Source of the DNA: Lachnospiraceae bacterium
GTDB lineage: Bacteria; Bacillota; Clostridia; Lachnospirales; Lachnospiraceae
Direction of reading: 5' to 3'
Assembly (NCBI GenBank): GCA_022800815.1
Contig: JAAWRC010000026.1
Span: forward strand, 1-46,971
DNA length: 46,971 nt
Part shown: in pieces, positions 14,969-46,873 of the stretch
Position numbering within the stretch: position 1 is the stretch's first letter
How the letters are laid out: the number at the start of each line of letters is the position of its first letter
Translations under genes and position numbers: made by a program
The notes under the pieces: generated by a model
Database searches by the model: none
Told to the model about the DNA's origin: nothing
What the model saw: the letters and a program-made list of their open reading frames with translations, nothing else

Positions 14969-14993
14969 GATAATCCCTCGTTTCTGTGCAATG

Positions 14994-15022: not shown

Positions 15023-15035
15023 GGTTTTCCAGAGA

Positions 15036-32418: not shown

Positions 32419-32478
32419 TTGACTTTGCGCGGGATTGATTGTATATTATAGCTAGTTCATATGTCTGACAAATGACAA
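32419..32478 (+). promoter_or_regulatory. TRAP operon promoter with GntR-type operator
   Basis: TTGACT (32419-32424), 17 nt, TATATT (32442-32447). Fifteen bases downstream is ATGTCTGACAAATGACA (32461-32477), with the 9-bp palindrome TGTCTGACA (32462-32470). The same 17 bases occur, inverted and without mismatch, at the transketolase promoter (35992-36008). Placement just after the transcription start suggests repression. TGTCNGACA cores are typical of FadR-subfamily GntR regulators; the regulator gene is not in this window. Confidence 0.75.
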
Positions 32479-32513
32479 ATAGGACGATGAACGATAAATG
32501 GAGGTATTCGCTT

Positions 32514-33542
32514 ATGAAGCATGGCAGGGCAATCACATCCGTATTGCTTGGCGCAGCGCTGCTTGCCGGGGGCCTTTCCGGCTGCGGCGGCAGTAAGGAA
32601 ACCGGTGCGGACGGCAGCGCTTATGAAAAGGTAAATTTATCCATGGCCGTCAATGGGACCGACACGCAGATGGACTCGCTGGTAGCCAATCATTTCGCCG
32701 AACTGGTCATGGAGCGTTCCGGCGGGAACGTGGTCATCGACGTGTTTCCCAACGACACCCTGGCCGGGGGCAACAGCACCAAGGGGGTGGAGTACATCGC
32801 AGTGGGCGGCTCGGACCTGGGGGCTTACGCCACCAGCGTGCTGGCCAACCTGGAACCGAAAATTTCCGTGGCGACCCTTCCCTGGTCTTTTTCCTCCTAT
32901 CAGGAGGCCAGGCAGGTGATCGATTCCACCGGCGGGGAGTATTATGCGGAGCTTTTGAAGGACAAGGGCATCACTTATCTGGGCTCCTTTCACAATGGCT
33001 TCCGTCAGCTGACCAACAGCAAGCATCCGGTGACGAAGCCGGAGGATCTTAAGAATCTGAAGATCCGGGTTCCCGGCTCCGCCGTGTACATGAACGTGTT
33101 CCGGGCCCTGGGGGCCAGCCCCACGTCCATGAGCTGGAGCGAGGTGTTCACGGCCATCCAGCAGGGGACCATCGGCGGGCAGGAGAACGGCTGCTCCATC
33201 ACCAAGTCGGCCAAGATGGACGAGATCCAGGATTACATGACCATCTGGAACTACAGCTATGAGAATAATCTCTTTGTGGCCAACACGAAGATCTGGGAGA
33301 GCCTTCCTGAAAATACCAGGGAGCTTCTCTCGGAATGCGCCGTGGAAGCCTGCAACTGGGGGAGAGACCAGCTGGAGGCCGACGAGGACCGGCTGATCCA
33401 GGAGTTTAGGGACAGCGGCATGCAGGTGGAGGTCCTCACGGAAGAACAGCTTGCCCTCTTTAAGGAGGCGGTGGCGGACGTGACGGAGGAACTGAAGGAA
33501 GACTACGGCGAGGCGGCCTGTGCCGCATTCGGCATCGAATAG
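32514..33542 (+). CDS. dctP: TRAP transporter substrate-binding lipoprotein (DctP family)
   Basis: 342 residues. Signal peptide with lipobox LSGC (Cys23 or nearby), so a membrane-tethered binding protein, as usual in Firmicutes. DctP fold: MDSLVANHFAELVMERSGGN, then LKIRVPGSAVYMNVFRALGA, where the Arg binds the substrate carboxylate, and WSEVFTAIQQGTIGGQENG. Ligands of this family are C4-dicarboxylates, sugar acids, sulfonates and related organic acids. AATGGAGG lies nine nt before the ATG at 32514. The substrate is unknown; co-regulation with transketolase genes favours a sugar acid or similar compound. Confidence 0.9.
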   Translation: MKHGRAITSVLLGAALLAGGLSGCGGSKETGADGSAYEKVNLSMAVNGTDTQMDSLVANHFAELVMERSGGNVVIDVFPNDTLAGGNSTKGVEYIAVGGSDLGAYATSVLANLEPKISVATLPWSFSSYQEARQVIDSTGGEYYAELLKDKGITYLGSFHNGFRQLTNSKHPVTKPEDLKNLKIRVPGSAVYMNVFRALGASPTSMSWSEVFTAIQQGTIGGQENGCSITKSAKMDEIQDYMTIWNYSYENNLFVANTKIWESLPENTRELLSECAVEACNWGRDQLEADEDRLIQEFRDSGMQVEVLTEEQLALFKEAVADVTEELKEDYGEAACAAFGIE

Positions 33543-33554
33543 GAGGGGGCTGTT

Positions 33555-34046
33555 ATGTTAGAAAAAATTGAAAAGGTGGTAGCCTGTGCCTGTGTATCCG
33601 TGATGGCGGTGCTGGTCTTTGCCAACGTCATCGCCCGCTATGTGTTCAACAATTCCCTGGCATTCTCCGACGAGATGTCCACCTATCTGTTCGTGCTCAT
33701 GAGCTTTATGGGAACGGCCATTGCGGCCCGCCGTCAGGCCCACCTGGGGCTTTCCATTGTCACGGGCAAGGTAAGTCCCAAGACCCGTCTGATCATCAAT
33801 GTGACCACCTACGGGATTGCGGCCCTGTTCTGCCTGCTGATCGTGATCTTTGGCATCCAGATGGTCGTAAGCCAGTACCGGATGGGGCAGGAGACGGCCA
33901 CCATGCAGTGGCCGGAGTGGATCTACGGTTCCTTTGTCCCGGCGGGCGCCGCTTTTTCCATGGCGGCCTTCGTCGAGGGCATCATCGATATGGTCAAGGG
34001 ACATTCCGGGGAAGACGGCCCTGCGCCGCAGAAAGGAGAGGAATAA
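33555..34046 (+). CDS. dctQ: TRAP transporter small permease (DctQ)
   Basis: 163 residues with four membrane segments, as expected for DctQ. The conserved ARYVFNNSLAFSDEMSTYLFV segment and the AARRQAHLGL loop are present. It forms the membrane complex with DctM. It starts 12 nt after dctP with AGGAGGGGG upstream and its stop directly abuts the dctM start, so all three subunits are made together. Confidence 0.92.
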   Translation: MLEKIEKVVACACVSVMAVLVFANVIARYVFNNSLAFSDEMSTYLFVLMSFMGTAIAARRQAHLGLSIVTGKVSPKTRLIINVTTYGIAALFCLLIVIFGIQMVVSQYRMGQETATMQWPEWIYGSFVPAGAAFSMAAFVEGIIDMVKGHSGEDGPAPQKGEE

Positions 34047-35336
34047 ATGACCGGTATTGTGTTATTGGGACTTTTTGTGCTTCTGCTGGTGTTCGGCGCA
34101 CCCATCGCCGTCTGCCTGGGCATGTCCAGCGTGGCGGCGATCCTGGTCCAGGGGGCGGGCAAGCCCGTCGACGCCATCATGAGCGTGCTTCCCAGGCTCT
34201 GCTCCTCCGCCAGCAGTAAATTCGTCCTGCTTGCAATCCCCTTTTTCATCCTTTCCGGCAACGTCATGGAGAAGGCGGGGATTTCCGGGCGGCTCATCAA
34301 CCTGGCGGAGAAGTGCCTGGGCCATATCAAAGGGGGAATGGCGATTGTCTGCGTGGTGGTCTCCTGCTTCTTTGCGGCCATCTCCGGTTCCGGCCCCGCC
34401 ACGGTGGCGGCCCTGGGGCTGATCATGATTCCGGCTCTCGTGAAGGCCGGGTATCCGGCGGCCTTCTCCTGTGCGCTGATTGCGGCCGGGGGAGCCATCG
34501 GCGTCGTCATCCCGCCCTCCATCACCTTTGTGGTCTACGGCTCCATTGCGGATGCCTCCATCACGGACCTGTTCCTGTCCGGCCTGGTTCCGGGGCTCTG
34601 CATGGGCGTGGGGCTGATTATCACGGCTCTTCTGGTAGGGAGGCGGCTGGATTTAAAAGTCCTTCCCAGGGCGACGGGAAAAGAGCGCTGGCAGGCTTTT
34701 AAGGGAGCCTTCTGGGGGCTTCTGATGCCCGTCATCATCCTGGGCGGCATCTACGGCAGCATCTTTACGCCCACGGAGGCGGCGGCCGTGTCCGTGTTCT
34801 ACGGGCTGGCGGTGGGGGTCTTCGTCTATAAGGAGCTGAACGTGAAGAAGATTATCAGCATCCTGGTGGATTCCTGCAGCACCACGGCCACGGTCATGTT
34901 CATCACCATGGGCGCAACCCTCTTCGGCTATGTGCTGACCCGTGCCAGGCTGGATCTGGCCATCAAAGGCTTCATGCTGGCCATCACGGGAGGAAACTGG
35001 ATTATCTTCTTCCTCATCGTCAACGTGGTGCTCCTGATTGCCGGCTGCTTCCTGGATTCCACCTCGGCCCTCTACATCTTCACGCCGCTCTTTGCGCCGG
35101 TGGCCCTGGAGCTGGGAATCCATCCGATTCACCTGGGCGTGGTCATGATCGTCAACCTGGCCATCGGGCTCTTCACGCCGCCGGTGGGAGTGAACCTCTA
35201 CGTGGCCTGTGGCATCGGGGACATCAAGATCGAGGAGATCACGAAGGGCATCGTCCCCTGCCTGATCGCCGAGATGGTGATCCTCCTGCTGGTCACCTAC
35301 CTCCCCTTCATCTCCACGATGTTCGTGGGAGGATGA
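34047..35336 (+). CDS. dctM: TRAP transporter large permease (DctM)
   Basis: 429 residues, about twelve membrane segments, the ion-coupled transport subunit. Family motifs: IPFFILSGNVMEKAGISGRL, SGSGPATVAALGLIMIPALV and IPPSITFVVYGSIADASI, plus the C-terminal FTPPVGVNLYVACGI. It uses a sodium or proton gradient instead of ATP. AAGGAGAGG precedes the ATG. It ends the TRAP operon; a stem-loop and then a large structured region follow. Confidence 0.94.
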   Translation: MTGIVLLGLFVLLLVFGAPIAVCLGMSSVAAILVQGAGKPVDAIMSVLPRLCSSASSKFVLLAIPFFILSGNVMEKAGISGRLINLAEKCLGHIKGGMAIVCVVVSCFFAAISGSGPATVAALGLIMIPALVKAGYPAAFSCALIAAGGAIGVVIPPSITFVVYGSIADASITDLFLSGLVPGLCMGVGLIITALLVGRRLDLKVLPRATGKERWQAFKGAFWGLLMPVIILGGIYGSIFTPTEAAAVSVFYGLAVGVFVYKELNVKKIISILVDSCSTTATVMFITMGATLFGYVLTRARLDLAIKGFMLAITGGNWIIFFLIVNVVLLIAGCFLDSTSALYIFTPLFAPVALELGIHPIHLGVVMIVNLAIGLFTPPVGVNLYVACGIGDIKIEEITKGIVPCLIAEMVILLLVTYLPFISTMFVGG

Positions 35337-35338
35337 GC

Positions 35339-35360
35339 CGGGGACTGCCCTGAGTCCCCG
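35339..35360 (+). terminator. Hairpin directly after dctM
   Basis: CGGGGACT (35339-35346) pairs perfectly with AGTCCCCG (35353-35360), loop GCCCTG. No T-run, so it may protect the 3' end or be the first element of the structured block that follows. A second stem, ACAGGGA (35371-35377) / TCCCTGT (35425-35431), lies just beyond. Confidence 0.45.
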
Positions 35361-35438
35361 CTTTGGCGATACAGGGATACCCGGAGGGTGAACGAGCTTT
35401 CGAGGCGCCGAGCAGCACTATGAGTCCCTGTTTTGACA

Positions 35439-35879
35439 GGAAGCAAATCGGTTTTTTCTGTCATGAAACTTGTCAGCAAGTGCCCGGCAGTGTTCCTCGG
35501 CAGACGATAGGAGGTTTCGGGGATTTCACGAGCATCGTTATGAGCACTTAGCGCTCGTTTTTTGGGCGCTTACGTGCGATACATGCAAGGCTCTTGGCGA
35601 GGTATTTTCGAGCCTTAGAGCCTTGCATAGCGCAGGCAATTTCAGCCGACCCGGTTTGATGGAGGTGAAATTGCCTGCCAGTCAAATGCTGTAGAGCATT
35701 TGACCCACGGGCAGTTGCCAAATGGATATGCATACCCAAAGGGCACTTAGCATATCCGCTTGGCTCATTGTCTGCGCATGCATGGGCGGCGCAGTGAAAT
35801 CCCCGAAACCGAACGTGTCTGAAGAGGAACACTGCCGGGGGACTTGCCGAGACGATTATAAAGAACCGACTTTGCTTCC
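35439..35879. ncRNA. Candidate large structured RNA (nested inverted repeats, multi-hairpin)
   Basis: Part of an 812-bp stretch without a gene (35337-36148). Long outer arms pair in three blocks: GGAAGCAAATCGGTT (35439-35453) with AACCGACTTTGCTTCC (35864-35879, one bulge); CCCGGCAGTGTTCCTC (35483-35498) with 35824-35839, 16 bp perfect; GGTTTCGGGGATTTCAC (35513-35529) with 35794-35810, 17 bp perfect. Inside are hairpins: 35544-35577 (two-part, with G-U), ATGCAAGGCTCT (35583-35594)/35617-35628, 12 bp; GCAGGCAATTTCA (35632-35644)/35666-35678, 13 bp; GTCAAATGCT (35681-35690)/35695-35704, 10 bp, loop GTAG; GCCAA+GGATATGC (35717-35731)/35750-35764; TGCGC/GCGCA (35773-35793). No coding frame fits. 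A closed multi-branched fold like this suggests RNA; a non-autonomous mobile element is the alternative. Strand and family are unassigned. Confidence 0.55.
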
Positions 35880-35958
35880 GTGTTGCCGGAGCAAACCGTC
35901 ATTTTCCACAAAACCGCCCCCTCCATTTTGGTAAAAACGTAAAACATGCAAAAACCCC

Positions 35959-36008
35959 TTGACTTTGTCAGACATAGTGGTATAGTTAAAATGTCATTTG
36001 TCAGACAT
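35959..36008 (+). promoter_or_regulatory. Transketolase operon promoter with two GntR-type operators
   Basis: TTGACT (35959-35964), 16 nt, TATAGT (35981-35986). The palindrome TGTCAGACA occurs twice: 35966-35974, between -35 and -10, and 35999-36007, just past the start site; centres are 33 bp apart, about three helical turns. The second is inside the 17-base sequence shared with the TRAP promoter. This arrangement indicates repression by the same dimeric regulator. The 140 bp after it form an AT-rich untranslated leader with no further structure recognised. Confidence 0.78.
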
Positions 36009-36148
36009 ACTACATAAGACCAATAAGAGAAGCAAACAGAATCATCAAACACAGCAACCGACATCAAAGAGACTGCACGGCAACTACGAGACAGAGCAAC
36101 AAATGGTTTCACGCAACTATTAAAACGTTCAACAATGAGGTGATTTCT

Positions 36149-36985
36149 ATGAAAGACGTATCCATGAAAGATCTGAAGAATACGGCCACGAAGATGCGCA
36201 TGAAGGTGATCGACATGATCTACAAGGCGCAGTCCGGCCATCCCGGCGGCTCCCTCTCAGCGGCGGATTTTGTAACTGCCTGCTATTTTAGGTACATGAA
36301 CATTGACCCGAAAAATCTCCGATGGGAGGACCGGGACCGCATGGTGCTCTCCAAAGGCCATGTCTGCCCCATCCAGTACGCCTGCCTGGCGACGGTGGGA
36401 TTCTTCCCGGAGGAGGAGCTTGACACTCTGCGGAAGGAGGGCTCCAAGCTCCAGGGCCACCCTTCCATGAACAAATGCCCCGGCATCGACATTTCCACCG
36501 GTTCCCTGGGACAGGGGTTAGCCTGTGCGGCCGGGATGGCCATGGCGGCGAAGCTGGATAAAAAGGATTACAAAGTGTTCTGCGTGGTCGGCGACGGCGA
36601 GGCGCAGGAGGGCGAGATCTGGGAGGCTGCCAACACGGCCCACAAATACGGCCTCGACAACCTGGTTACCTTTGTGGACGTCAACAACCTGCAGCTTGAC
36701 GGCACCTGCGACGAGGTCATGCCCAACGGCGACCTGGGAGAGAAGTTCCGGGCCTTCGGCTGGGAGGTCATCGAGCTGGACGGCCACAGCATGGAGGAGA
36801 TCGTGGCGGCGCTGGATAAGTGTTATGTTTCCAAAAACGGAAAACCGAAATGCCTGTTCGCCCACACGGTCAAGGGCAAGGGGGTTTCCTTTATGGAGAA
36901 TCAGTGCGGCTGGCATGGAGTCGCTCCCAACGAAGAGCAGTATAAGCAGGCGATGGCAGAGCTGGAAGCCCAGCTCATCAAATAA
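36149..36985 (+). CDS. Transketolase, N-terminal (thiamine diphosphate-binding) subunit
   Basis: 278 residues, equal to the first part of a full transketolase. GHPGGSLSAADFVTACYFR (substrate and ThDP side), the KGHVCPIQYACL segment, GSLGQGLACAAGMAMAAKLD, and the ThDP/metal motif GDGEAQEGEIWEAANTAHKY followed by DVNNLQLDG (GDG...N). It needs the following gene for the pyrimidine-binding half. GAGG lies eight nt before the ATG at 36149. Split transketolases occur in carbohydrate and sulfosugar catabolic loci of Firmicutes, where they move two-carbon units between sugars. Confidence 0.92.
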   Translation: MKDVSMKDLKNTATKMRMKVIDMIYKAQSGHPGGSLSAADFVTACYFRYMNIDPKNLRWEDRDRMVLSKGHVCPIQYACLATVGFFPEEELDTLRKEGSKLQGHPSMNKCPGIDISTGSLGQGLACAAGMAMAAKLDKKDYKVFCVVGDGEAQEGEIWEAANTAHKYGLDNLVTFVDVNNLQLDGTCDEVMPNGDLGEKFRAFGWEVIELDGHSMEEIVAALDKCYVSKNGKPKCLFAHTVKGKGVSFMENQCGWHGVAPNEEQYKQAMAELEAQLIK

Positions 36986-36997
36986 GCGAGGAGGGCT

Positions 36998-37939
36998 ATG
37001 ACAATGAGTGAGAAGAAGATGATTCCGACCCGTGACGGCTTTGGCCGGGAAATCGTAGAGCTTGGCAAGAAGAATTCGGACATTCTGGTGGTGGACATTG
37101 ATATAGGAAAGAGCTGCAAGACCGGGGAATTCCGCAAGGAGCTGCCGGACCAGTACATAAACGTGGGCATTGCGGAGCAGAACGGTGCGGGCTTTGCCGC
37201 AGGGTTAGCCACCTGTGGAAAGATTCCCTTCGTGGTCACCTATGCGGTGTTCGGCTCCCTGCGCATGTGTGAGATGATCCGCCAGGAGATTTGCTATCCC
37301 AACCTGAACGTGAAGATCGCCTGCTCCCACGGCGGCGTGACTCCGGCCAATGACGGCGCTTCCCATCAGTCCATCGAGGACATGGGAGTCCTGAGGACCA
37401 TCCCCAATATGACGGTCATCATGCCCGCTGATTACAACGCCGCCAGGAAGCTTTGCCGGGAGGCGGCAGAGACTTACGGCCCCATGTACCTGCGCTTTAC
37501 CAGGGATGCGGTGCCCCAGATTTACGACGAGGACGTGGAGCTCACCATCGGCAAGGCCCACCAGATCCGGGACGGGAAGGACGTGGCCATCATTGCCAAC
37601 GGCGACACGGTCCGCCTGGCCATCGAGGCAGCCGAAAGCCTGGAGAAGGAGGGAATCTCGGCGAGGGTGCTGGATATGCACACCATCAAGCCTCTGGACG
37701 TGGAGGCGGTGACGGCGGCCGTAAGAGAAATCGGGAAGGTCATCACCGTGGAAGACCATAACATCTTGAACGGCCTGGGCTCCGCCGTCTGCGAGGTCGC
37801 CGCCGAGATGGGCAAGGGCCTTGTGAAGCGGGTAGGCATCCAGGACCAGTTCGGCCAGTCGGCGCCCTATGAGCGGCTTCTGGAAATCAACGGCATTACC
37901 GCCGGAAATATCGTAAAGCTTGCGAAAGAGATGCAGTAG
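36998..37939 (+). CDS. Transketolase, C-terminal (pyrimidine-binding) subunit
   Basis: 313 residues: pyrimidine-binding domain with the ThDP-activating Glu in NVGIAEQNGAGFAAGLA, the SHGGVTPANDGASHQSIED loop, and a C-terminal transketolase_C domain (VEDHNILNGLGSAVCEVAAE). It starts 12 nt after the N-terminal subunit with GCGAGGAGGG upstream. Together they form the heterotetrameric enzyme. It is followed by an intercistronic hairpin (37967-38003) and the dehydrogenase gene. Confidence 0.93.
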   Translation: MTMSEKKMIPTRDGFGREIVELGKKNSDILVVDIDIGKSCKTGEFRKELPDQYINVGIAEQNGAGFAAGLATCGKIPFVVTYAVFGSLRMCEMIRQEICYPNLNVKIACSHGGVTPANDGASHQSIEDMGVLRTIPNMTVIMPADYNAARKLCREAAETYGPMYLRFTRDAVPQIYDEDVELTIGKAHQIRDGKDVAIIANGDTVRLAIEAAESLEKEGISARVLDMHTIKPLDVEAVTAAVREIGKVITVEDHNILNGLGSAVCEVAAEMGKGLVKRVGIQDQFGQSAPYERLLEINGITAGNIVKLAKEMQ

Positions 37940-37966
37940 TTTCCAATCCCAACTGTTTTTATAAAA

Positions 37967-38003
37967 GGCCCGTCCCAAGGTCCGGGGACGGAGGGGGCGG
38001 GCC
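37967..38003 (+). promoter_or_regulatory. Intercistronic hairpin between transketolase and dehydrogenase genes
   Basis: GGCCCGTCCC (37967-37976) pairs with GGGGCGGGCC (37994-38003), ten bp with one G-U. No T-run follows. It probably stabilises the upstream mRNA or lowers read-through into the dehydrogenase gene. Confidence 0.45.
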
Positions 38004-38032
38004 GCCAATTTCTGAATGAGGAGGATATCGAG

Positions 38033-38791
38033 ATGTTTGATTTTAAAGACCAGGTTGTTTTAATTACAGGGGCCGGCTCTCCCAGGGGAATGGGCCGGGT
38101 GTTTGCACACTCCTTCGCCGGGCTGGGCGCAAAGGTCGTGCTCTGCGACATTAATAAGGAAGGCGTGGATGCCAACGTAAAAGAATTGAAGGAAGCCGGG
38201 TTTGAGGCGGCGGGCTTCGCCGGCAATCTCTGCGAGGAAGAGAATGTAACGTCATTGGCGGATTCGGTGGTGAAGCTCTACGGCCGCATCGACGTGCTGG
38301 TCAACAATGCCGGGATTTCCCAGAAGGTCACGGTGGCGGATATGACCCTCGGCGATATGCAGAGAATTTTCAGCGTCAACATGTTCGGCCTGTTCCTCTT
38401 AACCAAGGCGGTCTGCGAGGTCATGAAGAAGCAGAACTACGGCCGTATCGTCCACCTGTCTTCCGTTTCCGGAAAGCGGGGCGGCGGCGTCTTCGGCGGA
38501 GCCCATTATTCTGCCTCCAAGGCGGCGGTGCTCGGCTTCTCCAAGAACCTGGCCAGGGAAGTGTCCCAGTACGGAATCACCACCAACTGCGTCTGCCCCG
38601 GCCTGATCAACACGGACATCTGGAAGAGCATGTCCCCGGAGCAGGCCAAGCCGGTCATCGACGCCATCCCCATGGGACGCCCCGGAGAGCCGGAGGAGGT
38701 GGCCGCCGCCATCGTGTTCCTGGCTTCCAAAGAGGCTTCTTATATCACCGGTGAGGAGATTGACATCAACGGTGGGTCCCATATGGACTAA
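38033..38791 (+). CDS. Short-chain dehydrogenase/reductase (SDR)
   Basis: 252 residues, classical SDR. Cofactor loop TGAGSPRGMGRVFA, NNAG (VLVNNAGIS), catalytic Ser in HLSSVSGKRGG and YSASKAAVLG for Tyr-Lys, and the C-terminal EEVAAAIVFLASKEASYITGE. An Asp (DINKEG) at the end of the second strand suggests NAD rather than NADP. The closest-looking families oxidise sugar acids or polyols (gluconate 5-dehydrogenase and 2-deoxygluconate dehydrogenase types). It lies in the operator-controlled operon and is followed by a terminator, so it probably oxidises or reduces the imported substrate or its intermediate. Confidence 0.92.
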   Translation: MFDFKDQVVLITGAGSPRGMGRVFAHSFAGLGAKVVLCDINKEGVDANVKELKEAGFEAAGFAGNLCEEENVTSLADSVVKLYGRIDVLVNNAGISQKVTVADMTLGDMQRIFSVNMFGLFLLTKAVCEVMKKQNYGRIVHLSSVSGKRGGGVFGGAHYSASKAAVLGFSKNLAREVSQYGITTNCVCPGLINTDIWKSMSPEQAKPVIDAIPMGRPGEPEEVAAAIVFLASKEASYITGEEIDINGGSHMD

Positions 38792-38896: not shown

Positions 38897-39136
38897 CTAT
38901 TGCTTTTTTCTAAATATATTTTTATGTTTTATGATACTTGCTGCGACAGATACAATCCCTGTCATTATCAATAGAATTCCACAAGGTTTATTTATTTTCT
39001 GATAAGTCAGCACGCCAGTATAAAAAATAAGCGTTACAACACTTAAGAATAATTTTTTGTGAATATATATTGGCAAGCCCAAAGCGATTATGATATACTT
39101 ATCCTGTATAGGTGGGGAGGAGGGATATCTATGCAA
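38897..39136 (-). CDS. Small two-helix membrane ORF, possibly a fragment
   Basis: A 79-codon minus-strand frame in the 339-bp gap before the restriction genes. The last 50 residues hold two hydrophobic stretches (LFLSVVTLIFYTGVLTY and CGILLIMTGIVSVAASII) with Lys-rich ends, as in small membrane proteins. Its start would lie inside the ribosome binding region of the divergent methylase gene and no Shine-Dalgarno sequence precedes any start, so it may be a remnant. Function unknown. Confidence 0.3.
   Translation of the reverse strand: MHRYPSSPPIQDKYIIIALGLPIYIHKKLFLSVVTLIFYTGVLTYQKINKPCGILLIMTGIVSVAASIIKHKNIFRKKQ
39070..39099 (+). promoter_or_regulatory. Promoter of the restriction-modification operon
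   Basis: TTGGCA (39070-39075), 18 nt, TATACT (39094-39099) with an extended -10 TGA (39091-39093), 31 bp before the ATG. Base composition is AT-rich, like the genes it drives. Confidence 0.65.
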
Positions 39137-41761
39137 TTAAATGAGGATGCCATCAAAGAATTGATTACAGCAATAGGATATACTCCCCAAGACGGGAAAA
39201 ACGGGATTTATTTTAAAAGCTATCCCAACCATGGAGGATATTGTGTTTTCTTGGATTTTAATAACCAGAAAATCATTTACGATTCTGATGAAAATCCATC
39301 TGGTATCGCTATAAAAGTATGGGAAAGAACAACAAGCAATTTCTCGCAGGCAGAAAACTTTGTTGTTTTAGAGTGTGTGGATAGTCTGTTAGAAAAGGGG
39401 TATGCTCCATTTTGTATTGAGTTGGAAAAAACCTATCCTTCAGGGCATGGGCGTTCAGGCAGGCTTGACGTTTTGGTCAAATCTGCGGAGGGTGCGCCTT
39501 TTTTGATGATTGAATGCAAAACCTGGGGGACGGAGTTTGATAAGGAACAGTCAAAAATGCTAAAAAACGGTGGTCAATTGTTTACATATTATGCGAATGA
39601 CAGGGCTGCTAAGTTTTTGTGTCTCTACACTTCCCAAATAAATAGTGCAAGGGAACGTAAAAATATAATCGTTGACGTTGATCCTGCATGGACGAGTTTA
39701 TCTGGCGTTAAAGAAATTTATGGTCATTGGAACAAAAATTTCAAAGATAACGGTATTTTTGACAGTTATGCCGTACCGTATGATGTTAAGCATAGAGCGC
39801 TTACGTATGGAAAATTGGAAATGCTGAAGGAAGAGCATAGTGGGAAAATTTACAACCAAATCATGGAGATATTGCGCCATAATGCCATTTCTGATAAACC
39901 CAATGCTTTTAATAAGTTGCTGAATCTTTTTGTCTGCAAAATAATTGATGAAGCAGATAAAAACCCGGAAGATGAACTGGAGTTCCAATGGTTAGAAAGC
40001 GACACGGACGAAAGTCTCCAACTACGCTTGAATGATTTATACAAAAGGGGAATGTGGCGTTTTCTTGAGATTGATGTAATTGACTACGAACAATGCGAAG
40101 TGTCTGAAAAATTAGCAAATATTGAAGATTCCATTACAAAACAGTGGATCATGAAAATGTATACGGACACTCGTTTGAAGAAAAGCCCTAATTTCGCATT
40201 TTTGGAGGTTCAGGATGACAGAACTTTTGATTTGAATGCGAAAGTTGTCCGTGAAATTGTTGAACTACTTCAAGCGTATAAGTTTCGTTATGAGCAAAAA
40301 CATGAATTTTTAGGGAACTTTTTTGAACTTTTGCTGAACACCAGTATGAAGCAGGAGGCAGGGCAATTTTTTACCCCTGTCCCAATTACTCGTTTTATTA
40401 TTTGCTCCCTACCGTTAGCTGAACTTGTCCAAAAACGTGTTAATGACAGGCAAGGAGAGCCTTTGCCGGCTGTAATTGATTATGCCTGTGGAAGTGGTCA
40501 CTTTTTAACTGAATATATGTCTCAAATGCAGGAAATTATTGACACTAATAAAATTGATATTTCCCGCACATCACCGAGGATTAAGAACCTTATTCGGTCA
40601 TGGCAAGGCTTTACGAAATTCCTTTGGGCGAAAGACTGTGTATATGGAATTGACTTAGATAATAGGTTGGTGAAGACCACAAAAGTCAGTGCGTTCTTTA
40701 ATGGTGACGGAGAAGCCAACATTGTTTGGGCTAATGGTTTGGACAGTTTTACAAAGTCAGAGGTATTCAGAGGTAAACTTATCGGGGGTGTCGGACAAGA
40801 TAATGGAAAATTTGATATATTGATTTCCAATCCCCCATATTCCGTTGACGCATTCAAAAGTACAATTAAATATGGGGAGGAGTCTTTTGATCTGTATTCG
40901 AGCCTTACTGACAACAGTTCGGAAATTGAATGCCTCTTTATAGAGCGCATGAAACAGCTTTTGAAAGTGGGAGGCTGGGCAGCAGTTATCCTGCCCAGTT
41001 CCATTTTGACAAACAGCGGTATCTATGCAAAAGCAAGGGCAATCCTCCTAAAATATTTCACTGTGAAGGCGATTGTTGAAGCGGGCTCCAATACTTTCAT
41101 GAAAACTAACACGAGTACGGTTATTTTGTTTTTGGAGCGCCGTAACAATGATGACCATATAAATATCAGCCGAGCCATTGACCGATTTTTTGCTTCATAT
41201 GATGACGTCACTGTTTCCGGTATTGAGAATGCTTTTTCTACCTATGTTTCAAATGTATATGACCGGTTAACTTTTAAGGATTATATCAGCTTGTTCAATG
41301 GAACGCCCAGTGAAGCGTCCAAAGCCCATGAACTCTATGAAGACTATATAAAAGCTTTCGGTGAAAATTTCCGTTCTAAAGCAGTTGAAGTTGAAAAGGA
41401 GAAACTATTATACTTTTTGCTGACTTACAATCAGACCATTGTTTTGGTCAAGACGGGAAAGGGGAGAGAAGAGAAGAAATTCCTCGGCTACGAATTTAGT
41501 GAGCGCCGTGGACACGAAGGTCTGCATCATCTGGCTGGTGGAACAAAATTGTATGATGAAACGGATCCCTTAAACCCCGGCAAAGTCAGTGGTTATATTT
41601 ACCGAGCGTTTCTAGGCGAGCGGATTAAGATTGCCCCTGAGCTGACAGAGAATATGCACTATGGTCAACTGTGTCAGTTTATTGAATATGGAACGGGCCA
41701 ATTTAGCAAAGCTATAAACTTGGGAAAACCCCCAGGAATATTTTTCGATATCCATTTGTGA
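39131..41761 (+). CDS. Restriction-modification protein: nuclease domain fused to N6-adenine methylase
   Basis: 876 residues. N-terminal PD-(D/E)XK nuclease domain of HsdR_N type: Asp113 in RSGRLDVLVK and Glu128/Lys130 in FLMIECK (D-x14-ExK). A helical middle (HEFLGNFFELLLN, QFFTP at about 412) leads to the methylase: motif I Asp450 DYACGSGHF and motif IV N567-PPY570 (LISNPPYSVD), which makes N6-methyladenine. There is no helicase/translocase part, so this is a BcgI-like or type IIG-like enzyme, not a classical type I set. GGGGAGGAGGG precedes the ATG at 39131. The last residues (GKPPGIFFDIHL) are unlike the family; see the slippery site. The gene is AT-rich compared with both flanks. Confidence 0.9.
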   Translation: MQLNEDAIKELITAIGYTPQDGKNGIYFKSYPNHGGYCVFLDFNNQKIIYDSDENPSGIAIKVWERTTSNFSQAENFVVLECVDSLLEKGYAPFCIELEKTYPSGHGRSGRLDVLVKSAEGAPFLMIECKTWGTEFDKEQSKMLKNGGQLFTYYANDRAAKFLCLYTSQINSARERKNIIVDVDPAWTSLSGVKEIYGHWNKNFKDNGIFDSYAVPYDVKHRALTYGKLEMLKEEHSGKIYNQIMEILRHNAISDKPNAFNKLLNLFVCKIIDEADKNPEDELEFQWLESDTDESLQLRLNDLYKRGMWRFLEIDVIDYEQCEVSEKLANIEDSITKQWIMKMYTDTRLKKSPNFAFLEVQDDRTFDLNAKVVREIVELLQAYKFRYEQKHEFLGNFFELLLNTSMKQEAGQFFTPVPITRFIICSLPLAELVQKRVNDRQGEPLPAVIDYACGSGHFLTEYMSQMQEIIDTNKIDISRTSPRIKNLIRSWQGFTKFLWAKDCVYGIDLDNRLVKTTKVSAFFNGDGEANIVWANGLDSFTKSEVFRGKLIGGVGQDNGKFDILISNPPYSVDAFKSTIKYGEESFDLYSSLTDNSSEIECLFIERMKQLLKVGGWAAVILPSSILTNSGIYAKARAILLKYFTVKAIVEAGSNTFMKTNTSTVILFLERRNNDDHINISRAIDRFFASYDDVTVSGIENAFSTYVSNVYDRLTFKDYISLFNGTPSEASKAHELYEDYIKAFGENFRSKAVEVEKEKLLYFLLTYNQTIVLVKTGKGREEKKFLGYEFSERRGHEGLHHLAGGTKLYDETDPLNPGKVSGYIYRAFLGERIKIAPELTENMHYGQLCQFIEYGTGQFSKAINLGKPPGIFFDIHL
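41722..41728 (+). other. G_GGA_AAA slippery heptamer at the methylase/specificity junction
   Basis: In the methylase frame the bases 41722-41728 read G GGA AAA, the X_XXY_YYZ pattern of -1 programmed frameshift sites. Slipping there turns the methylase reading (NLGKPPGIFFDIHL, stop) into NLGKTPRNIFRYPFVTLSSV, which runs without a break into the specificity subunit at 41758. A weak stem (GGAATAT / ATATCC, 41735-41753) follows seven nt downstream. It could equally mark an old single-base deletion in a once-fused gene. Confidence 0.5.
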
Positions 41762-42822
41762 CTCTATCCTCCGTTTCTGAGGTAATATATGCTGGCGGGG
41801 ATGTACCAAAGAATCATTTTTCGAAAGAAAAATCAGAAGATTATCCGATTCCTATCTATTCAAACGGAATCGAAGACGATGGCCTTTATGGATATACCAG
41901 CGAGGATTATATTCGAGGTGAAGCCGGTTGTATTACAATTTCTGCACGTGGGACCGTCGGGTTTTCCAAATTGCGGAAAGAACCGTTTTTACCTGTGATC
42001 CGTTTACTTGTAGTAAAACCCAAAGTTGAGTACATTTTACCAAAGTATTTAGAAGTAGCTATTGCATGGATAGGAATTGGCGCTTTTGGAAAGACAACGC
42101 CGCAGCTTACAGTGCCTCAAGCATCAAATTTGGAAATTCCCTTTCCCCCTCTGGATATTCAACGAAAAATTGTGGTTGAAATAGAGCAGGTCGAAAATAA
42201 AGAACAGGAATTTCGGACAGCGATGACAGGGATTCAGACGGAAATTTTCACAATCCTTGAACAATGTCAAAAGAGTGCTGTTGATTTTGTGAAATTACGC
42301 GAAGTAGTGATGTATTCCACGGAAAAGATTGATGCCCAATCCTTAGATAAAGACACCTACGTTGGCGTTGACAATCTTCTTCCTGATGTAGCCGGTAAAC
42401 GGATGTCTGAGTTTGTTCCGGTTTCAGGAAAAGTAACGGCATACCATCCCGAAAATATATTGCTATCAAATATCCGCCCATATTTGAAAAAGGCGTGGTT
42501 TGCGGATAATCACGGTGGAGCTTCTGGCGATGTGTTAGTCTTGGTGGTGAATAAAAAAATGGCCGTTCCTGGATATGTTTTTGGCTTTGTATCTGCCGAT
42601 CCATTTTTTGATTACGAGATGCAAAATATCGGAAGTAAGGTAAAAATGCCGAGAGCGGACAAGAAGAAAGTTCTGGACTTCCCAATCCCCATGCTACCCA
42701 TTCAAGAGCAACAACGAATTGCGGACGAGATTACCAGCAAGAAATCTGAAATATCCAAATTGCGCATCCAACTGAGTGCGATGAAAACAGAAAGGGATTT
42801 GGTTTTAAAGAAATATCTTTAA
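41758..42822 (+). CDS. Restriction-modification specificity subunit (HsdS-like)
   Basis: 354 residues. Two target-recognition domains (about 1-135 and 175-320) each followed by a helical spacer (EIEQVENKEQEFRTAM near 140-170; ADEITSKKSEISKLRIQLSAM at the end). Paired conserved ends of each domain: NLEIPFPPLDIQRKIVVEIE and VLDFPIPMLPIQEQQRIADEI. It reads two half-sites for the upstream enzyme. The start GTG overlaps the methylase stop (GTGA) and there is no Shine-Dalgarno sequence. The usual N-terminal strand lies upstream in this same frame, suggesting that the natural protein begins by read-in from the methylase frame. Confidence 0.88.
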   Translation: MTLSSVSEVIYAGGDVPKNHFSKEKSEDYPIPIYSNGIEDDGLYGYTSEDYIRGEAGCITISARGTVGFSKLRKEPFLPVIRLLVVKPKVEYILPKYLEVAIAWIGIGAFGKTTPQLTVPQASNLEIPFPPLDIQRKIVVEIEQVENKEQEFRTAMTGIQTEIFTILEQCQKSAVDFVKLREVVMYSTEKIDAQSLDKDTYVGVDNLLPDVAGKRMSEFVPVSGKVTAYHPENILLSNIRPYLKKAWFADNHGGASGDVLVLVVNKKMAVPGYVFGFVSADPFFDYEMQNIGSKVKMPRADKKKVLDFPIPMLPIQEQQRIADEITSKKSEISKLRIQLSAMKTERDLVLKKYL

Positions 42823-42878: not shown

Positions 42879-43361
42879 CTATTGTGACGCCTCTGCGAGA
42901 AAAGCTTTTGCTTTTTTGTCAAGGACGTCCTTTTTTAACAGGGCGTAATCCTCCCCCATGAAACGCCGGACCATCTCCAGCGTCGTGTGCTCCTTTTCGG
43001 CCAGCTCTTCGGCGGCCTTTCGCAGCTCGGCTTCGGAAACCTGGAGCTGTTCCTCCCGGATGACGAGGCGCAGGATCTCCTCCACCTGGTGGTCCCGGAT
43101 GATTTCCTTCCGGAGTTTTTCCATCCATTCCTCCAGGCTGGTTTCTTCCAACTGGTGGTCTCCGCCCATGGCACGGTAGCGCATGGTCTGCATGAGGCCG
43201 GCCATTTCCATTTTCAGCTCATTTTCCACTTTTTCTTCTGAGAAGCCGACCCTGGACTCCCGGATGATCTGGTCCAGGAGAAGCTCTGCCTTTTCGTCGG
43301 CGGAAGAGTAAGGTTTTTTTAAGGTCAGCCCTTTATATTGGATCGCATTGTCAGGTAACAT
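42879..43361 (-). CDS. Stand-alone trigger-factor C-terminal-domain protein
   Basis: 160 residues, all matching the helical C-terminal substrate-binding domain of trigger factor (Trigger_C): the leading NAIQYKGLTLKKPYSSADEK, the ADEKAELLLDQIIRESRV helix, a VSEAELRKAAEELAEKEHTT segment (compare VTEEEIDAEVEKIA in full-length Tig), and a helical end. The N-terminal ribosome-binding domain and the middle FKBP-type prolyl isomerase domain are both absent, so it cannot dock on ribosomes in the normal way. It is the last gene of the operon, starting 3 nt after the GroEL paralogue stop with AAGGAACC inside that gene. Function as a holdase or partner of the paralogue is inferred. Confidence 0.78.
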   Translation of the reverse strand: MLPDNAIQYKGLTLKKPYSSADEKAELLLDQIIRESRVGFSEEKVENELKMEMAGLMQTMRYRAMGGDHQLEETSLEEWMEKLRKEIIRDHQVEEILRLVIREEQLQVSEAELRKAAEELAEKEHTTLEMVRRFMGEDYALLKKDVLDKKAKAFLAEASQ

Positions 43362-43364
43362 CGC

Positions 43365-44957
43365 TTATGGTTCCTTTGCTGTTTTTGGTATGGCCGTCAC
43401 CCCCGCCTCGGCAGTCATCAGGGCAGCGGCGGCCGATGCCGCGCATTGGAGGGCCAGCCGTGTCACCTTGGCGGGGTCCACGATGCCGGCCTTCATCATG
43501 TCGGTGTAAGTATCCCCCCGGACATCATACCCGCCTCCTCTTTTTAATGCCTTCACTTTGGCGGCCACGACGGAGGGCTCCAGGCCCGCATTCTCCGCAA
43601 TCTGGCGGAGGGGCATTTCCAGGGCTTTCAGGACGATGGAAGCCCCGGTCTTTTGGTCGCCGTCCAGGGAATCGGCGTAGGCGCGGACTGCCGGGACAAT
43701 ATCCAGATAGGTGGTTCCGCCCCCGGGGACGACGCCCTCCTGCAAAGCAGCCTTTGCCGCCTGCACGGCTTGTTCCATACGCCCTTTGAACTCCTTCATT
43801 TCCGTGTCCGTCGGCGCCCCGACCCGGATCACGGCGGTGCCTCCCGTGAACCTTGCCAGACGTTCCCGGAGCTTCTGGTTCTTAAAGTCGTAGCTCTCGG
43901 TCTGTATCATCCTTCGGAGCATGGCGAGATGCGCCTGTACGTCGGCAGGGTCTCCGCCCCCGTTTACAATGGCGGTATGGTTTTTGGAGACGGTCACCTT
44001 CTCTGCCGTGCCCAGCATGTCGAGGGTGGTTTCCCTTAAGGTAAGTCCAATCTGCCTGGAAATCCATGTGCCACCCGTGAAAATGCAGATGTCCTCCATC
44101 TGCTGCTGCCGCCCGTCCCCATATGCCGGGGGATGGACGGCGACGGCATTGACGACGCCCTTCTTTTTGTTCAGGATCAGTGCGGAGAGCGCACCGGCCG
44201 TGACGTTCTCTGCGATGACCAGGAGGGGACGGCCTTTCGCATGGATCTGCTCCAGAAGAGGAAGGATATCCTGCACATTGGAAATCTCGTAATCCGTCAC
44301 CAAAATGTAGGGATTCTTAAGCTCCTCCGACCGGGTTTTCTGGTCTTGGATCAGTTCCAGGTTCAGATACCCCTTTTCGTACTGCATTCCCTCCGTGATT
44401 TCCAGGCTCGTCTCCAGGTTCGGGCTCTCCTCGACGGTGATCACGCCCTCCGCCCCGATGCGGCCGAAGGCCTTGGCGGTTAGCTCCCCGGCAGATTCAC
44501 TTCCCGACGAGACGGCGGCAACCTTCCGGATGTCCTCCGGCCCCTGTACCGGCCGGGACAGCTTCCGGATGGCTGCGCAGGAGAGCTGGACGCTCCCCTG
44601 GATCCCCTTCCGGAGCTCGACGGCGTTGGCTCCCGCCGCAATGTTTTTGAGCGCTTTCTTCAAAATGCCCGCAGTAAAGAGCATTGCCGCCATCGTTCCG
44701 TCGCCTGCCTGTTCCCGGAGGGGGGCTGCCGCCTCCTTCATGATCCGGGCGCCGATTCTCTCATAACGGTCTTCCGGCTCGATGGCCTCTGCGACCTGGG
44801 TGCCGCTTCCAACCATGGATGGAAGGCCGGAGGCCTGTCCGATCAGCACGTTTCTTCCCTTTGGCCCGAAGGTCATTCGGACGGCGTCCGCCGTCTTCTC
44901 GATACCTGCCAGTATCCGTTCCCGTGACTCCTGTCCGTATAGAATCTGCCCGGCCAT
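43365..44957 (-). CDS. Divergent GroEL paralogue lacking two ATPase aspartates
   Basis: 530 residues, colinear with GroEL along its whole length. Conserved: GPKGRNVLIG, AGDGT (Asp86 = E. coli Asp87), EGVITVEES, PLLVIAENVTAGALSALILN (apical substrate/GroES groove), EEGVV-like QEGVVPGGG, and DPAKVTRLALQ. Changed: the ATPase residue Asp52 (TKDGVS) is Ser51 (VGSGTQ), Asp398 (RVEDAL) is Gln396 (RMEQAV), and GDGTTTA is GDGTMAA. The Gly/Met-rich C-terminal tail is missing (end PKTAKEP). In E. coli, loss of Asp52 and Asp398 nearly abolishes ATP hydrolysis but not binding. No groES is adjacent. GGAGG lies before the ATG. It is not the housekeeping chaperonin and probably has a specialised client. Confidence 0.9.
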   Translation of the reverse strand: MAGQILYGQESRERILAGIEKTADAVRMTFGPKGRNVLIGQASGLPSMVGSGTQVAEAIEPEDRYERIGARIMKEAAAPLREQAGDGTMAAMLFTAGILKKALKNIAAGANAVELRKGIQGSVQLSCAAIRKLSRPVQGPEDIRKVAAVSSGSESAGELTAKAFGRIGAEGVITVEESPNLETSLEITEGMQYEKGYLNLELIQDQKTRSEELKNPYILVTDYEISNVQDILPLLEQIHAKGRPLLVIAENVTAGALSALILNKKKGVVNAVAVHPPAYGDGRQQQMEDICIFTGGTWISRQIGLTLRETTLDMLGTAEKVTVSKNHTAIVNGGGDPADVQAHLAMLRRMIQTESYDFKNQKLRERLARFTGGTAVIRVGAPTDTEMKEFKGRMEQAVQAAKAALQEGVVPGGGTTYLDIVPAVRAYADSLDGDQKTGASIVLKALEMPLRQIAENAGLEPSVVAAKVKALKRGGGYDVRGDTYTDMMKAGIVDPAKVTRLALQCAASAAAALMTAEAGVTAIPKTAKEP

Positions 44958-44985
44958 AAAAACCTCCGCATTTATAGAATGTTTT

Positions 44986-45870
44986 CTACAGTTTATCCAG
45001 CTCTGTCAAGAAGGTGTCCAGTTCTTTTTCATCCATGTGATAGCCGTGTTTGTCCTCGGGGTATGCGCCTGTGCGGACGTCGTTCGCCCAGGTGGCATAG
45101 GCGGTCGCCGCCCACTCGAAGAAGTTTGCGTAGGCCTTTGCGTGGGAGGCGGGGTTGGGCATCATGCCAAAGGTATCAAAGTCCACCATCTCACAGCCGT
45201 CCGCAGCGCCGCCCGCCGCAATGGAGATCACCGGTACACGGAGCTTTTTGGCGATGGCGTTGGTAACCTCGATGGGAGTCAGCTCAATGCTCATTGCCAT
45301 CATGCCGTTCTCCTGGTATTCGTAAGCCATCCGCGCGACCTTCATGGCCTCCTCGGCCGTCTTTCCCATGCGCTTGTATCCGCCCTGCCTGTTGGTCTGC
45401 CATCCGGAGAGGGCTCCGACATGGCCGAACACCACCAGATAGTTGTCTGCCATGTATTTCAGGGTTTCATTGGTGATGCCCATGGGGAGGAGGGAGTCCG
45501 CCCCGCAGTTCATATAGTAGGAGCCATACTCCATCGCCTTTTCCTTGGAGGAATAGGTGGGTGTCTGCATATAGAAATTGATGTGGATGTTTTTGGCTGC
45601 CCGGCGTACCGTCTGGATCCACCAGGGCGCCATGTCGATCTGGAGCTGGGGGTCCTGGGCACCGTCGCCGGGAACCGTCAGACGGCAGATGTCACAGCCC
45701 GCAATCTCCGCCGCCTGTGTGAAAAACTGGTCTCTGCCGGCCGGGCACATCTGTACGATGGGCGTTCCCTCGTCCTTCAGCTTCTGAAGGTAATTGATGG
45801 ATTTGCGGCCCTTCACCACACGGGACGCAGTCACTTTTTTATCTTCTTTTGCAACAACAACTTCTGCCAT
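44986..45870 (-). CDS. Divergent PanB-family (ketopantoate hydroxymethyltransferase-like) TIM-barrel enzyme
   Basis: 294 residues aligning over the whole length with PanB. Matching segments: YLQKLKDEGTPIVQ, VFGHVGALSG then GGYKRMGKTAEEAM (PanB GHLGLTPQS...GGYKVQGR), PIEVTNAIAKKLRVPVISIAAG (PanB LAKRITEALAIPVIGIGAG), ADGCEMVDFDTFGM and AYPEDKHGYHM (PanB VYPGEEHSFH). Key PanB residues: Asp45 kept (PGDGAQ), Glu181 kept (SIELTP), but Asp84 and Glu114 appear replaced (FYMQTP, LLPMG), so metal binding and reaction must differ from ketopantoate formation. AAGGAGAAAGAGC precedes the ATG at 45870; the upstream in-frame Met is rejected. Related to the PEP mutase/isocitrate lyase fold. Confidence 0.8.
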   Translation of the reverse strand: MAEVVVAKEDKKVTASRVVKGRKSINYLQKLKDEGTPIVQMCPAGRDQFFTQAAEIAGCDICRLTVPGDGAQDPQLQIDMAPWWIQTVRRAAKNIHINFYMQTPTYSSKEKAMEYGSYYMNCGADSLLPMGITNETLKYMADNYLVVFGHVGALSGWQTNRQGGYKRMGKTAEEAMKVARMAYEYQENGMMAMSIELTPIEVTNAIAKKLRVPVISIAAGGAADGCEMVDFDTFGMMPNPASHAKAYANFFEWAATAYATWANDVRTGAYPEDKHGYHMDEKELDTFLTELDKL

Positions 45871-45949
45871 GCTCTTTCTCCTTTTCTTGTGGTCACATAA
45901 CAATGGGTTCCTAAAGCTTAAATTCGGACGGCAGATCTCTCCGTGGTCC

Positions 45950-46786
45950 TCATGCGCTGAGACAAACGCCCCCGTCGATGATGAGGGAAGCGCCGTTCAT
46001 GAAGCTGGATTCGTCGCTGCCCAGGTACACGGCCAGAGGGGTGATCTCGTGGGGGAAGCCGATGGCCGGCATTTTGGGGTCATCTCCCAGGGCAAAGCGG
46101 GAGGATTTCACCATCCACTCCTTCGCATGGGCATTGTACCCGGTCATCCGGTGTATGGCGGCTCCGCCCTCGTGGACAGTGCCCATGCTTTTGTTGATAT
46201 TGGTGAGGACAGGCCCCGGACAGATCGCATTGCAGCGGATCCCGTCACGGCCATATTCAAAGGCGATGGCCTTCATCAGGGCGTTGGCTCCGGCTTTTGA
46301 CGCACAGTAGGCCGGGCCGCCTGTCGCACTCTCGAAAGCGGCATTTGAGGTGATCATCACGATCGACGCACTCACTTCGTTGGCAAGAAAATACTGCAGC
46401 GCCGCGCGGGTGATCTTCATCGAGGCAGTCAGATTGACGGAGAGCATTCTCTCCCACAATTCGTCGGTCATCTCAGCCATCGGAGTAAAATTATCCGCCG
46501 CCCCGGCATTGTGGGACAGCACGTTGCAGGTACCGAAGGCATCCGCGCAGACCCGGACCGCATTCCCGCAGTCCTCAGATTTTGTTACATCGCAGGAAAC
46601 GATGCGGATGTTTTCTTCAAGGCCCAGCTCTTTTGCCTCTTTCGCAAGAGCCGAAAGCGCATCCATATTGCGGGCCGCCGCCACGACCCTGGCTCCCTCC
46701 TTCAGATATGCGAGGGCGATCGCCTTCCCCATACCAGAGCTGGCGCCGGTGACAACAGCCGCTTTTCCCGACATTCGTCCAGCCAT
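45950..46786 (-). CDS. Short-chain dehydrogenase/reductase (SDR)
   Basis: 278 residues. TGASSGMGKAIA cofactor loop, HNAG in place of the usual NNAG, catalytic Ser in MITSNAAFESATGG and YCASKAGANAL for Tyr-Lys, and the C-terminal SSFMNGASLIIDGGVCLSA. VAAARN at the second strand end suggests NADP preference. An insert of about 35 residues (TVHEGGAAIHRMTGYNAHAK region, about 200-235) is longer than in the other SDR of this window. GGAGTGGTTGAA precedes the ATG at 46786. It is the first gene of the minus-strand operon with the PanB-like enzyme and the two chaperone-like genes, 79 nt upstream of the PanB-like start. Confidence 0.9.
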   Translation of the reverse strand: MAGRMSGKAAVVTGASSGMGKAIALAYLKEGARVVAAARNMDALSALAKEAKELGLEENIRIVSCDVTKSEDCGNAVRVCADAFGTCNVLSHNAGAADNFTPMAEMTDELWERMLSVNLTASMKITRAALQYFLANEVSASIVMITSNAAFESATGGPAYCASKAGANALMKAIAFEYGRDGIRCNAICPGPVLTNINKSMGTVHEGGAAIHRMTGYNAHAKEWMVKSSRFALGDDPKMPAIGFPHEITPLAVYLGSDESSFMNGASLIIDGGVCLSA

Positions 46787-46873
46787 TTCAACCACTCCTT
46801 TCCCTTCCATGTGGCTTGTTCTGTGGTGACTTGTGCAAAACAACTAAAATACTTGAGAGCTCTTCTTTTATAC

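Follow-up and report, generated by a model that had tools for sequence, protein, structure and literature searches.

The operon and the question it raises

Why should an enzyme resembling ketopantoate hydroxymethyltransferase (PanB, EC 2.1.2.11) be encoded together with a GroEL paralogue and an isolated domain of trigger factor? The question arises in a 46,971-nucleotide stretch of DNA from a Lachnospiraceae bacterium (GenBank assembly GCA_022800815.1, contig JAAWRC010000026.1, positions 1 to 46,971), hereafter called the window, where four genes follow one another on the minus strand at 42879-46843:

45950..46843, minus strand: short-chain dehydrogenase/reductase (SDR) oxidoreductase, longest frame (Pfam adh_short, E 2.3e-52)
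44986..45870, minus strand: PanB-like TIM-barrel enzyme, 294 amino acids (aa) from the ATG at 45870 (Pfam Pantoate_transf, E 6.4e-44)
43365..44957, minus strand: GroEL paralogue, groES not adjacent (Pfam Cpn60_TCP1, E 3.4e-64)
42879..43361, minus strand: stand-alone trigger-factor C-terminal domain protein, 160 aa, hereafter Trigger_C (Pfam Trigger_C, E 1.2e-7)

The answer we propose, with a probability of roughly 40%, is that the SDR and the PanB-like enzyme carry out a retro-aldol cleavage that passes a carbon to folate, that a dedicated chaperone pair serves them, and that the whole is a catabolic cluster that has spread horizontally among anaerobes.

An earlier note on this DNA had listed the four genes in this order with gaps of 79, 28 and 3 nucleotides (nt), and both coordinates and Pfam matches confirm it: 79 nt separate the SDR end (45950) from the PanB-like ATG (45870), 28 nt separate the PanB-like and GroEL genes (44986 to 44957) and 3 nt separate the GroEL and Trigger_C genes (43365 to 43361). 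Its SDR start at 46786 needs correction, as this is an internal ATG and the longest frame reaches 46843. For the PanB-like gene, the ATG at 45870 is the best start, with a TTG at 45903 as a possible alternative. Co-translation of the last three genes, which the note held to be almost certain, is at most plausible, and that for GroEL and Trigger_C with their 3-nt gap. Ribosome-site-like sequences (aaggag, ggagg and aaagga, judged by eye) precede the ATGs of these three genes, and a simple scan of the minus strand found no promoter-like match.

Only 128 nt of the window remain beyond the longest SDR frame, which leaves the operon's start out of view; the contig end truncates the next gene upstream. 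At the near-identical locus L004 (we number loci with L and genomes with G), whose PanB-like protein is 98% identical, the gene upstream of the SDR belongs to a LuxR-type regulator group, a label that comes from a Pfam GerE match in another group member. The same SDR group adjoins the PanB-like gene in L004-L007 and L026. A sequencing chimera is ruled out because the same operon occurs in L004 and in other genomes.

The PanB-like enzyme

The AlphaFold model of the PanB-like protein (predicted local distance difference test score, pLDDT, 87.8) has the PanB TIM-barrel fold, and its best PDB matches are PanB structures (3vav, 1m3u). Its score against the NCBIfam panB equivalog is 93.1 bits, below the cut-off of 207.55. 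We aligned 60 family members of at least 250 aa, excluding two shorter rows and using E. coli numbering. H136 and E181, the latter of which we take to be the catalytic (general) base of PanB, are kept in 60/60 rows and D45 in 58/60. Unlike PanB, the family keeps D84, K112 and E114 in 0/60 rows, and it has new motifs, SGWQT and YEYQENGM. D45, D84, K112 and E114 presumably make up the Mg/2-oxoacid site of PanB; this site is mostly lost, so the PanB-like enzyme is not an ordinary PanB. Ordinary pantothenate synthesis was rejected as its role because of the altered active site and the sub-cut-off equivalog score.

The GroEL paralogue

The window GroEL barely reaches the GroEL family score (TIGR02348, 583.3 vs 582.1). 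In E. coli numbering it carries D52S, D398Q, T90M and T91A and has no GGM tail, so that the residues at D52, D87 and D398, which we assume to be the ATPase aspartates, are S, D and Q. Across 27 GroELs linked to PanB-like genes, D52 is kept in 20, D398 in 19 and both in 17, mostly coriobacterial, while neither is present in five (the window, L004, L009, L026 and L028). Y203 is kept in 3/27, and a GGM or GGG tail occurs in 0/27 linked vs 19/24 housekeeping GroELs.

The gene upstream of the window GroEL is the PanB-like gene rather than groES, and groES adjoined the linked GroEL in none of the 26 retrieved loci tested. It does lie beside 24 unlinked GroELs and beside the window genome's other GroEL. 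For four unlinked GroELs (L099, L100, L103 and L109) the locus test found no groES, and a later genome check located that of L099. The 25 genomes with a linked GroEL contain one GroES (20 genomes), two (2 genomes) or none that we found (3 genomes). In the GroEL search, which spanned 29 genomes (that of L035 not among them), the genomes whose retrieved cluster contains no GroEL each have one GroEL, except G020 with two.

These changes could mean that the paralogue has lost its foldase action and forms a passive ring (a scaffold, holdase or storage cage) with Trigger_C as its adaptor. The lost aspartates, Y203, tail and adjacent groES all fit such a ring; against it, 17 of the 27 linked GroELs retain both aspartates, and the single housekeeping GroES of most such genomes could act as a lid. 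We consider a passive ring improbable.

In a tree, the 27 linked GroELs together with L103 form one group (support 94/100), with the housekeeping GroELs outside. L103 shares a contig with the L031 cluster; approximately 15 kb separate it from the PanB genes there, and genes for formate-tetrahydrofolate (THF) ligase (FHS) and FolD lie in between. The nearest outsiders are the groES-bearing L063 and L066, in a weakly supported set (80/99). Judged by their sequences, the linked GroELs are a distinct, co-inherited lineage. Displacement of the housekeeping groEL into the operon is rejected, as a separate groES-groEL is present in the window genome. An Oscillospiraceae genome carries a third GroEL that is highly divergent, at 30% identity and on a long branch (L109, G010:C35).

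The stand-alone trigger-factor domain

The Trigger_C family profile matches the C domain of Thermotoga maritima trigger factor (2nsa) at E 2.4e-9. A structural model of modest quality (pLDDT 73.7) has the same protein as its best Foldseek match (TM 0.68, E 2.7e-3), so the assignment is carried more strongly by the sequence profile than by the structure match. Against the full trigger-factor equivalog the window protein scores 41.4 vs 180.2 bits and covers only positions 271-409 of 410; it thus has the C-terminal domain fold of trigger factor, and a Pfam/NCBIfam scan found no match to the other two domains, the ribosome-binding and peptidyl-prolyl isomerase domains. The small Mycoplasma protein MPN555 is a weak structural match to the model (TM 0.46, E 1.6). 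A displaced trigger factor gene (tig) is unlikely, because a full-length tig was seen in the sister genome G001, although no search aimed at tig was made in the window's own genome. Two clusters encode longer Trigger_C proteins with extra N-terminal stretches (L027:9090-9833, 247 aa, and L031:9071-9835, 254 aa), which could represent a stage between the complete protein and the isolated domain.

Recurrence and co-inheritance across genomes

The earlier note had suggested searching genomes for co-occurrence of the three genes. A contig search with the window PanB-like protein gave 53 loci, for which flanks of up to 8 kb were retrieved. This search uses exact peptide patterns, which favours close relatives; the PanB-like gene is common to all 53 loci by construction, and L055 is only a fragment. 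PanB-like relatives were found in Bacillota, Actinomycetota and Spirochaetota. The GroEL paralogue is in the flanks of 26/53 loci, and Trigger_C accompanies it in 26/26 (25 by locus map, L018 by tblastn). Trigger_C as a whole is present in 34/53 loci by locus map, or 35/53 adding L018. Our codon-scored open-reading-frame caller missed it in L018, L026 and L036, all three of which tblastn detects. L053 has only a GroEL fragment.

Where both GroEL and Trigger_C were measured (23 loci), they are same-strand neighbours in 18, separated by -14 to 76 nt. In the remaining five they are 1.3-3.9 kb apart, three of these on opposite strands. Gene order varies among taxa, and the recurring feature is which genes co-occur. 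The condition that the note had set for refutation, no conservation beyond this strain, does not apply: the association of the three genes recurs in three phyla, with a co-inherited GroEL lineage. This recurrence and the distinct GroEL lineage support a dedicated chaperone module. In the Blautia sp. An81 locus (L025:8001-8791) the PanB-like gene is split over two frames.

Two wider draws of genomes address how closely the genes travel together. The first comprised 299 genomes of the window's family, the window's own included. PanB-like matches at E <= 1e-40 occur in 7/299, and matches to the Trigger_C profile at that threshold occur only in the same seven, the next being 7e-26 among the matches listed. 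For four of the seven (the window and the genomes taken as holding L007, L025 and L044) the high Trigger_C scores are partly by construction, because rows from them built the profile; G176, G179 and G244 gave no rows to it. The weaker listed matches are in frames above 390 aa, as in full trigger factors, in all but two cases, and those two (G147, 248 aa; G172, 234 aa) have scores in the range of full trigger factors. In six of the seven carriers (the window, G057, which is taken as the L007 genome, L129, L131, L132 and L133) the PanB-like gene has GroEL no more than 2 kb away; none was found beside that of the seventh, L128. G176 has a second PanB-like copy (L130) without either chaperone.

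The second draw comprised 296 Coriobacteriia genomes centred on the carrier G025. Six have the PanB-like gene, five of them with GroEL and Trigger_C nearby (L041, L045, L135, L136 and L137); for the sixth, L138, neither was found within 12 kb. In the window's genus, 6/11 genomes match the PanB-like protein at E <= 0.001: identity is 55-100% in four, and the other two, at 26%, resemble true PanB.

Pairwise distances also agree between the genes: r is 0.74 for PanB-like and linked GroEL (n=27), 0.87 for GroEL and Trigger_C (n=24) and 0.56 for PanB-like and Trigger_C (n=31), each reached by 0/2000 permutations. Across 15 genomes, PanB-like distance correlates with linked GroEL at r 0.83 vs 0.60 with housekeeping GroEL (the latter reached by 3/2000 permutations), and the partial r for PanB-like and linked GroEL given housekeeping GroEL is 0.76; two of the 15 housekeeping copies (L099 and L100) were labelled so by judgement.

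The ratio of nonsynonymous to synonymous substitution rates (dN/dS) between the window and L004 is 0.01 for PanB-like, 0.11 for SDR, 0.13 for Trigger_C and 0.26 for GroEL; between L005 and L007 it is 0.02, 0.11, 0.11 and 0.10, respectively. All four genes are under constraint, and it is only in the window/L004 pair that GroEL is the least constrained. That looser ratio would suit chaperone genes that are decaying hitch-hikers on a mobile island, without special relevance to the enzyme, as would the GroEL not found beside L006, the fragment in L053 and the L028 GroEL, which has an in-frame stop and D87G. Such hitch-hiking is nevertheless very unlikely: the ratios are far below 1, GroEL behaves like SDR and Trigger_C in L005/L007, a single GroEL lineage is kept across three phyla, and Trigger_C and PanB-like occur in the same 7/299 genomes.

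Proposed function

The gene linkage, the co-inheritance, the altered active sites and a cluster without groES are what we observe. From them we infer the reaction, its direction, the substrate, the client and the chaperone action, as follows. The SDR, as the substrate-oxidising step of the cluster, would oxidise an alcohol to a ketone beside a carbon bearing CH2OH. The PanB-like enzyme would then run PanB chemistry in reverse, removing the CH2OH carbon by retro-aldol cleavage via the conserved glutamate (E181 in E. coli), and the carbon would be transferred to tetrahydrofolate as methylene-THF. This could enter the Wood-Ljungdahl pathway or yield formate and ATP via FolD, cyclodeaminase and FHS. 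Phenylpropanoid or lignin-type molecules that bear a gamma-CH2OH would be the likeliest substrates. Trigger_C may hold or deliver a chain, and GroEL, without its own groES, may help to fold or assemble the PanB-like enzyme or a partner.

We direct the carbon to folate because of PanB's chemistry and because folate genes adjoin a minority of loci. Neighbours were counted in 54 records (the 53 loci plus the window) and named from Pfam or NCBIfam on example members. FHS occurs in 10/54, FolD in 7/54, cyclodeaminase and 5-formyl-THF cyclo-ligase in 6/54 each, FolE and FolC in 4/54 each, a formate/nitrite channel in 5/54 and a GcvT-like protein in 3/54. MFS transporters are also present. Family scans of examples upheld the names of FHS, FolD, cyclo-ligase, FolC, cyclodeaminase and three MFS groups. 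The SDR family matches, in the groups scanned, leave the substrate unnamed; SDRc9 matches coniferyl-alcohol dehydrogenase best, at 172 bits vs a cut-off of 242.

O-demethylase-like genes offer a further link. In the coriobacterial locus L135, on a 3.17-Mb contig, a DesA/LigM-like gene lies between FHS and the PanB-like gene, 1.1 kb from the latter and together with a LysR gene; its best NCBIfam matches are DesA (229 bits) and LigM (212 bits), far under the cut-offs of 800 and 580. In the Coriobacteriia draw such genes occur in 6/296 genomes, namely in 3/6 PanB-like carriers vs 3/290 others (p 9e-5), and in those three carriers they are on the PanB-like contig, at most 16 kb away. Among 31 chosen genomes, nine have a match at E <= 1e-20.

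The cluster could instead run in the building direction, with formate taken up and converted to methylene-THF, the PanB-like enzyme adding a hydroxymethyl group to a ketone and the SDR reducing the product. PanB itself works in the hydroxymethyl-adding direction, and several clusters have a formate/nitrite channel and FHS. However, the several SDRs, the MFS and SSF transporters and the O-demethylase-like genes near some loci look catabolic, and the patchy accessory distribution also speaks against building. None of these neighbours, nor the distribution, fixes the direction of the reaction; we hold building to be improbable.

Weighing the proposal

Several observations count against the folate-linked retro-aldol reading with its dedicated chaperones. 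On the chemical side, no folate gene is beside the window operon, and FHS is near only the stated minority of loci. In the window's family, DesA/LigM-like genes occur in 5/299 genomes, with an overlap of one in seven carriers, on another contig (p 0.11, not significant), and the window's own genome gave no DesA/LigM-like match at E <= 1e-20. On the chaperone side, 18/53 loci have neither chaperone, several of them on short contigs. Five genomes (Acetobacterium, Alkalibaculum and a related member of the Eubacteriaceae) encode PanB-like proteins 69-77% identical to that of the window alongside one GroEL and only a full-length trigger factor; since these genomes were checked whole, the need for the chaperones is not universal. 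The window GroEL has other residues at two of the ATPase aspartates, which makes an ATP-driven folding cycle doubtful there, although their retention in the mostly coriobacterial 17/27 suggests ATP use in that branch. Finally, E. coli GroES/EL is reported to have been enough to stand in for the dedicated protein of one soluble methane monooxygenase (sMMO) (PMC9324122).

The earlier note's proposal of a dedicated folding, assembly or scaffold module for the PanB-like enzyme or its product pathway is partly supported: a dedicated module has support, with the PanB-like enzyme as no more than its putative client, and relatives 69-77% identical occur in genomes that have neither chaperone. The pair may be dedicated to the cluster and yet have another member as its client, such as the SDR, a GcvT/DesA-like protein or a flavoenzyme. 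Those relatives point that way, as do the coriobacterial clusters, where GroEL and Trigger_C are nearer the regulator and SDR3 than the PanB-like gene, and the SDR group, which differs among clusters (SDR1, SDR3). On the other hand, in the window's branch GroEL directly follows PanB-like in L004, L005 and L007 (in L026 one small frame lies between), and Trigger_C is the immediate upstream gene of PanB-like in 11/58 cases counted. A client elsewhere is a serious possibility, though we think it unlikely.

Under the retro-aldol reading, that clusters have both, one or no chaperone would indicate that the chaperones aid folding in some conditions and are not part of catalysis; by analogy with the gbu cluster described below, gut temperature may be such a condition. 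In the PanB tree, chaperone presence and absence switch several times, and the L006 genome, with a 93% identical PanB-like protein, has Trigger_C and no second GroEL that we found. Clusters with both, one or no helper around related enzymes allow a side-by-side test of the need for each helper.

Comparison with known systems

Enzyme-specific chaperonins are known from few operons. MmoG of sMMO operons and MimG of mycobacterial-type binuclear iron monooxygenases are encoded by GroEL-like genes beside the enzyme genes, with the standard groES absent there, and are reported necessary for functional enzyme (PMC7994243, PMC9324122, PMC7176365, each as far as its accessible text goes). How MmoG works without its own GroES is raised as an open question (PMC9324122, same limit). 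The window-type GroEL resembles MmoG by gene context, being linked to one enzyme system without groES; unlike here, the client of MmoG/MimG is an oxygen-using di-iron enzyme, and a stand-alone trigger-factor domain is unnamed in those portions.

In the gbu cluster of gut anaerobes, which converts gamma-butyrobetaine to trimethylamine, three strains have a nearby groEL-like gene, and an E. timonensis GroES/GroEL-like pair is required at 37 C, with E. coli chaperone plasmids no substitute (PMC10653785, in the part available). This too is an anaerobic catabolic cluster with a nearby groEL-like gene; it differs in its chemistry, in having a groES within the E. timonensis pair, which is encoded at a distance from the gbu genes, and in that no Trigger_C is named in that part. 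By analogy with what these sources describe in part, the operon would work like the MmoG and gbu cases, differing in its stand-alone Trigger_C partner and its enzyme. The earlier note knew of no system of this composition; we likewise found no description of the PanB-like, GroEL and Trigger_C combination in titles and abstract openings of the open-access papers that our searches listed, but a GroEL-like protein tied to a single enzyme system is known (MmoG, MimG, gbu).

For the chemistry, a parallel may be drawn with aerobic lignin-dimer degraders, which have LdpA/PcfL deformylation and the folate genes LigM/DesA, LigH and MetF (PMC12997858, partial text). There, as proposed here, a side-chain CH2OH is lost as a one-carbon unit and O-demethylation is folate-linked. 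LdpA and PcfL, unlike the proposed enzyme, are NTF2-family proteins that release formaldehyde under aerobic conditions, and PanB is unnamed in that text. The molecular mechanisms of anaerobic lignin degradation are not well understood, according to the accessible part of a review (PMC10795516), and if the proposed chemistry is true the cluster offers a genetic way into how anaerobes attack plant compounds that bear CH2OH. A fuller version, in which a partly ATPase-degenerate chaperonin without a lid gene has a stand-alone trigger-factor domain in place of GroES and is dedicated to a folate-linked retro-aldolase that opens oxygen-free side-chain carbon removal from lignin-type compounds, is a long shot.

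Other neighbouring genes

A LuxR-type regulator is near the PanB-like gene in 42/54 records, and SDR groups also recur. A group of 71-aa proteins occurs in 17/54 (members of 70-74 aa, one called at 90 aa; e.g., L045:7620-7835 and L014:7345-7560), with no Pfam/NCBIfam match in the member scanned. A 425-aa cysteine-containing protein (k17), likewise without a Pfam or NCBIfam family match, is in 4/54, for example at L031:9956-11233, where it adjoins the GcvT-like protein. Beside the L129 cluster (10220-16784) are a BaiCD-like flavoenzyme gene (430 bits, cut-off 825), a sodium symporter gene and acetate-kinase-family/phosphotransbutyrylase-like genes.

In the window, restriction-modification genes (39059-42822; N6_Mtase and a type I-like specificity subunit by Pfam) end 56 nt from Trigger_C, tail to tail, and the L004 gene map differs from the window at this stretch. 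Elsewhere in the window, on the plus strand at 32472-38791, a TRAP transporter (DctP, DctQ, DctM) comes before a split pair of transketolase genes and an SDR, a putative separate operon for uptake and cleavage.

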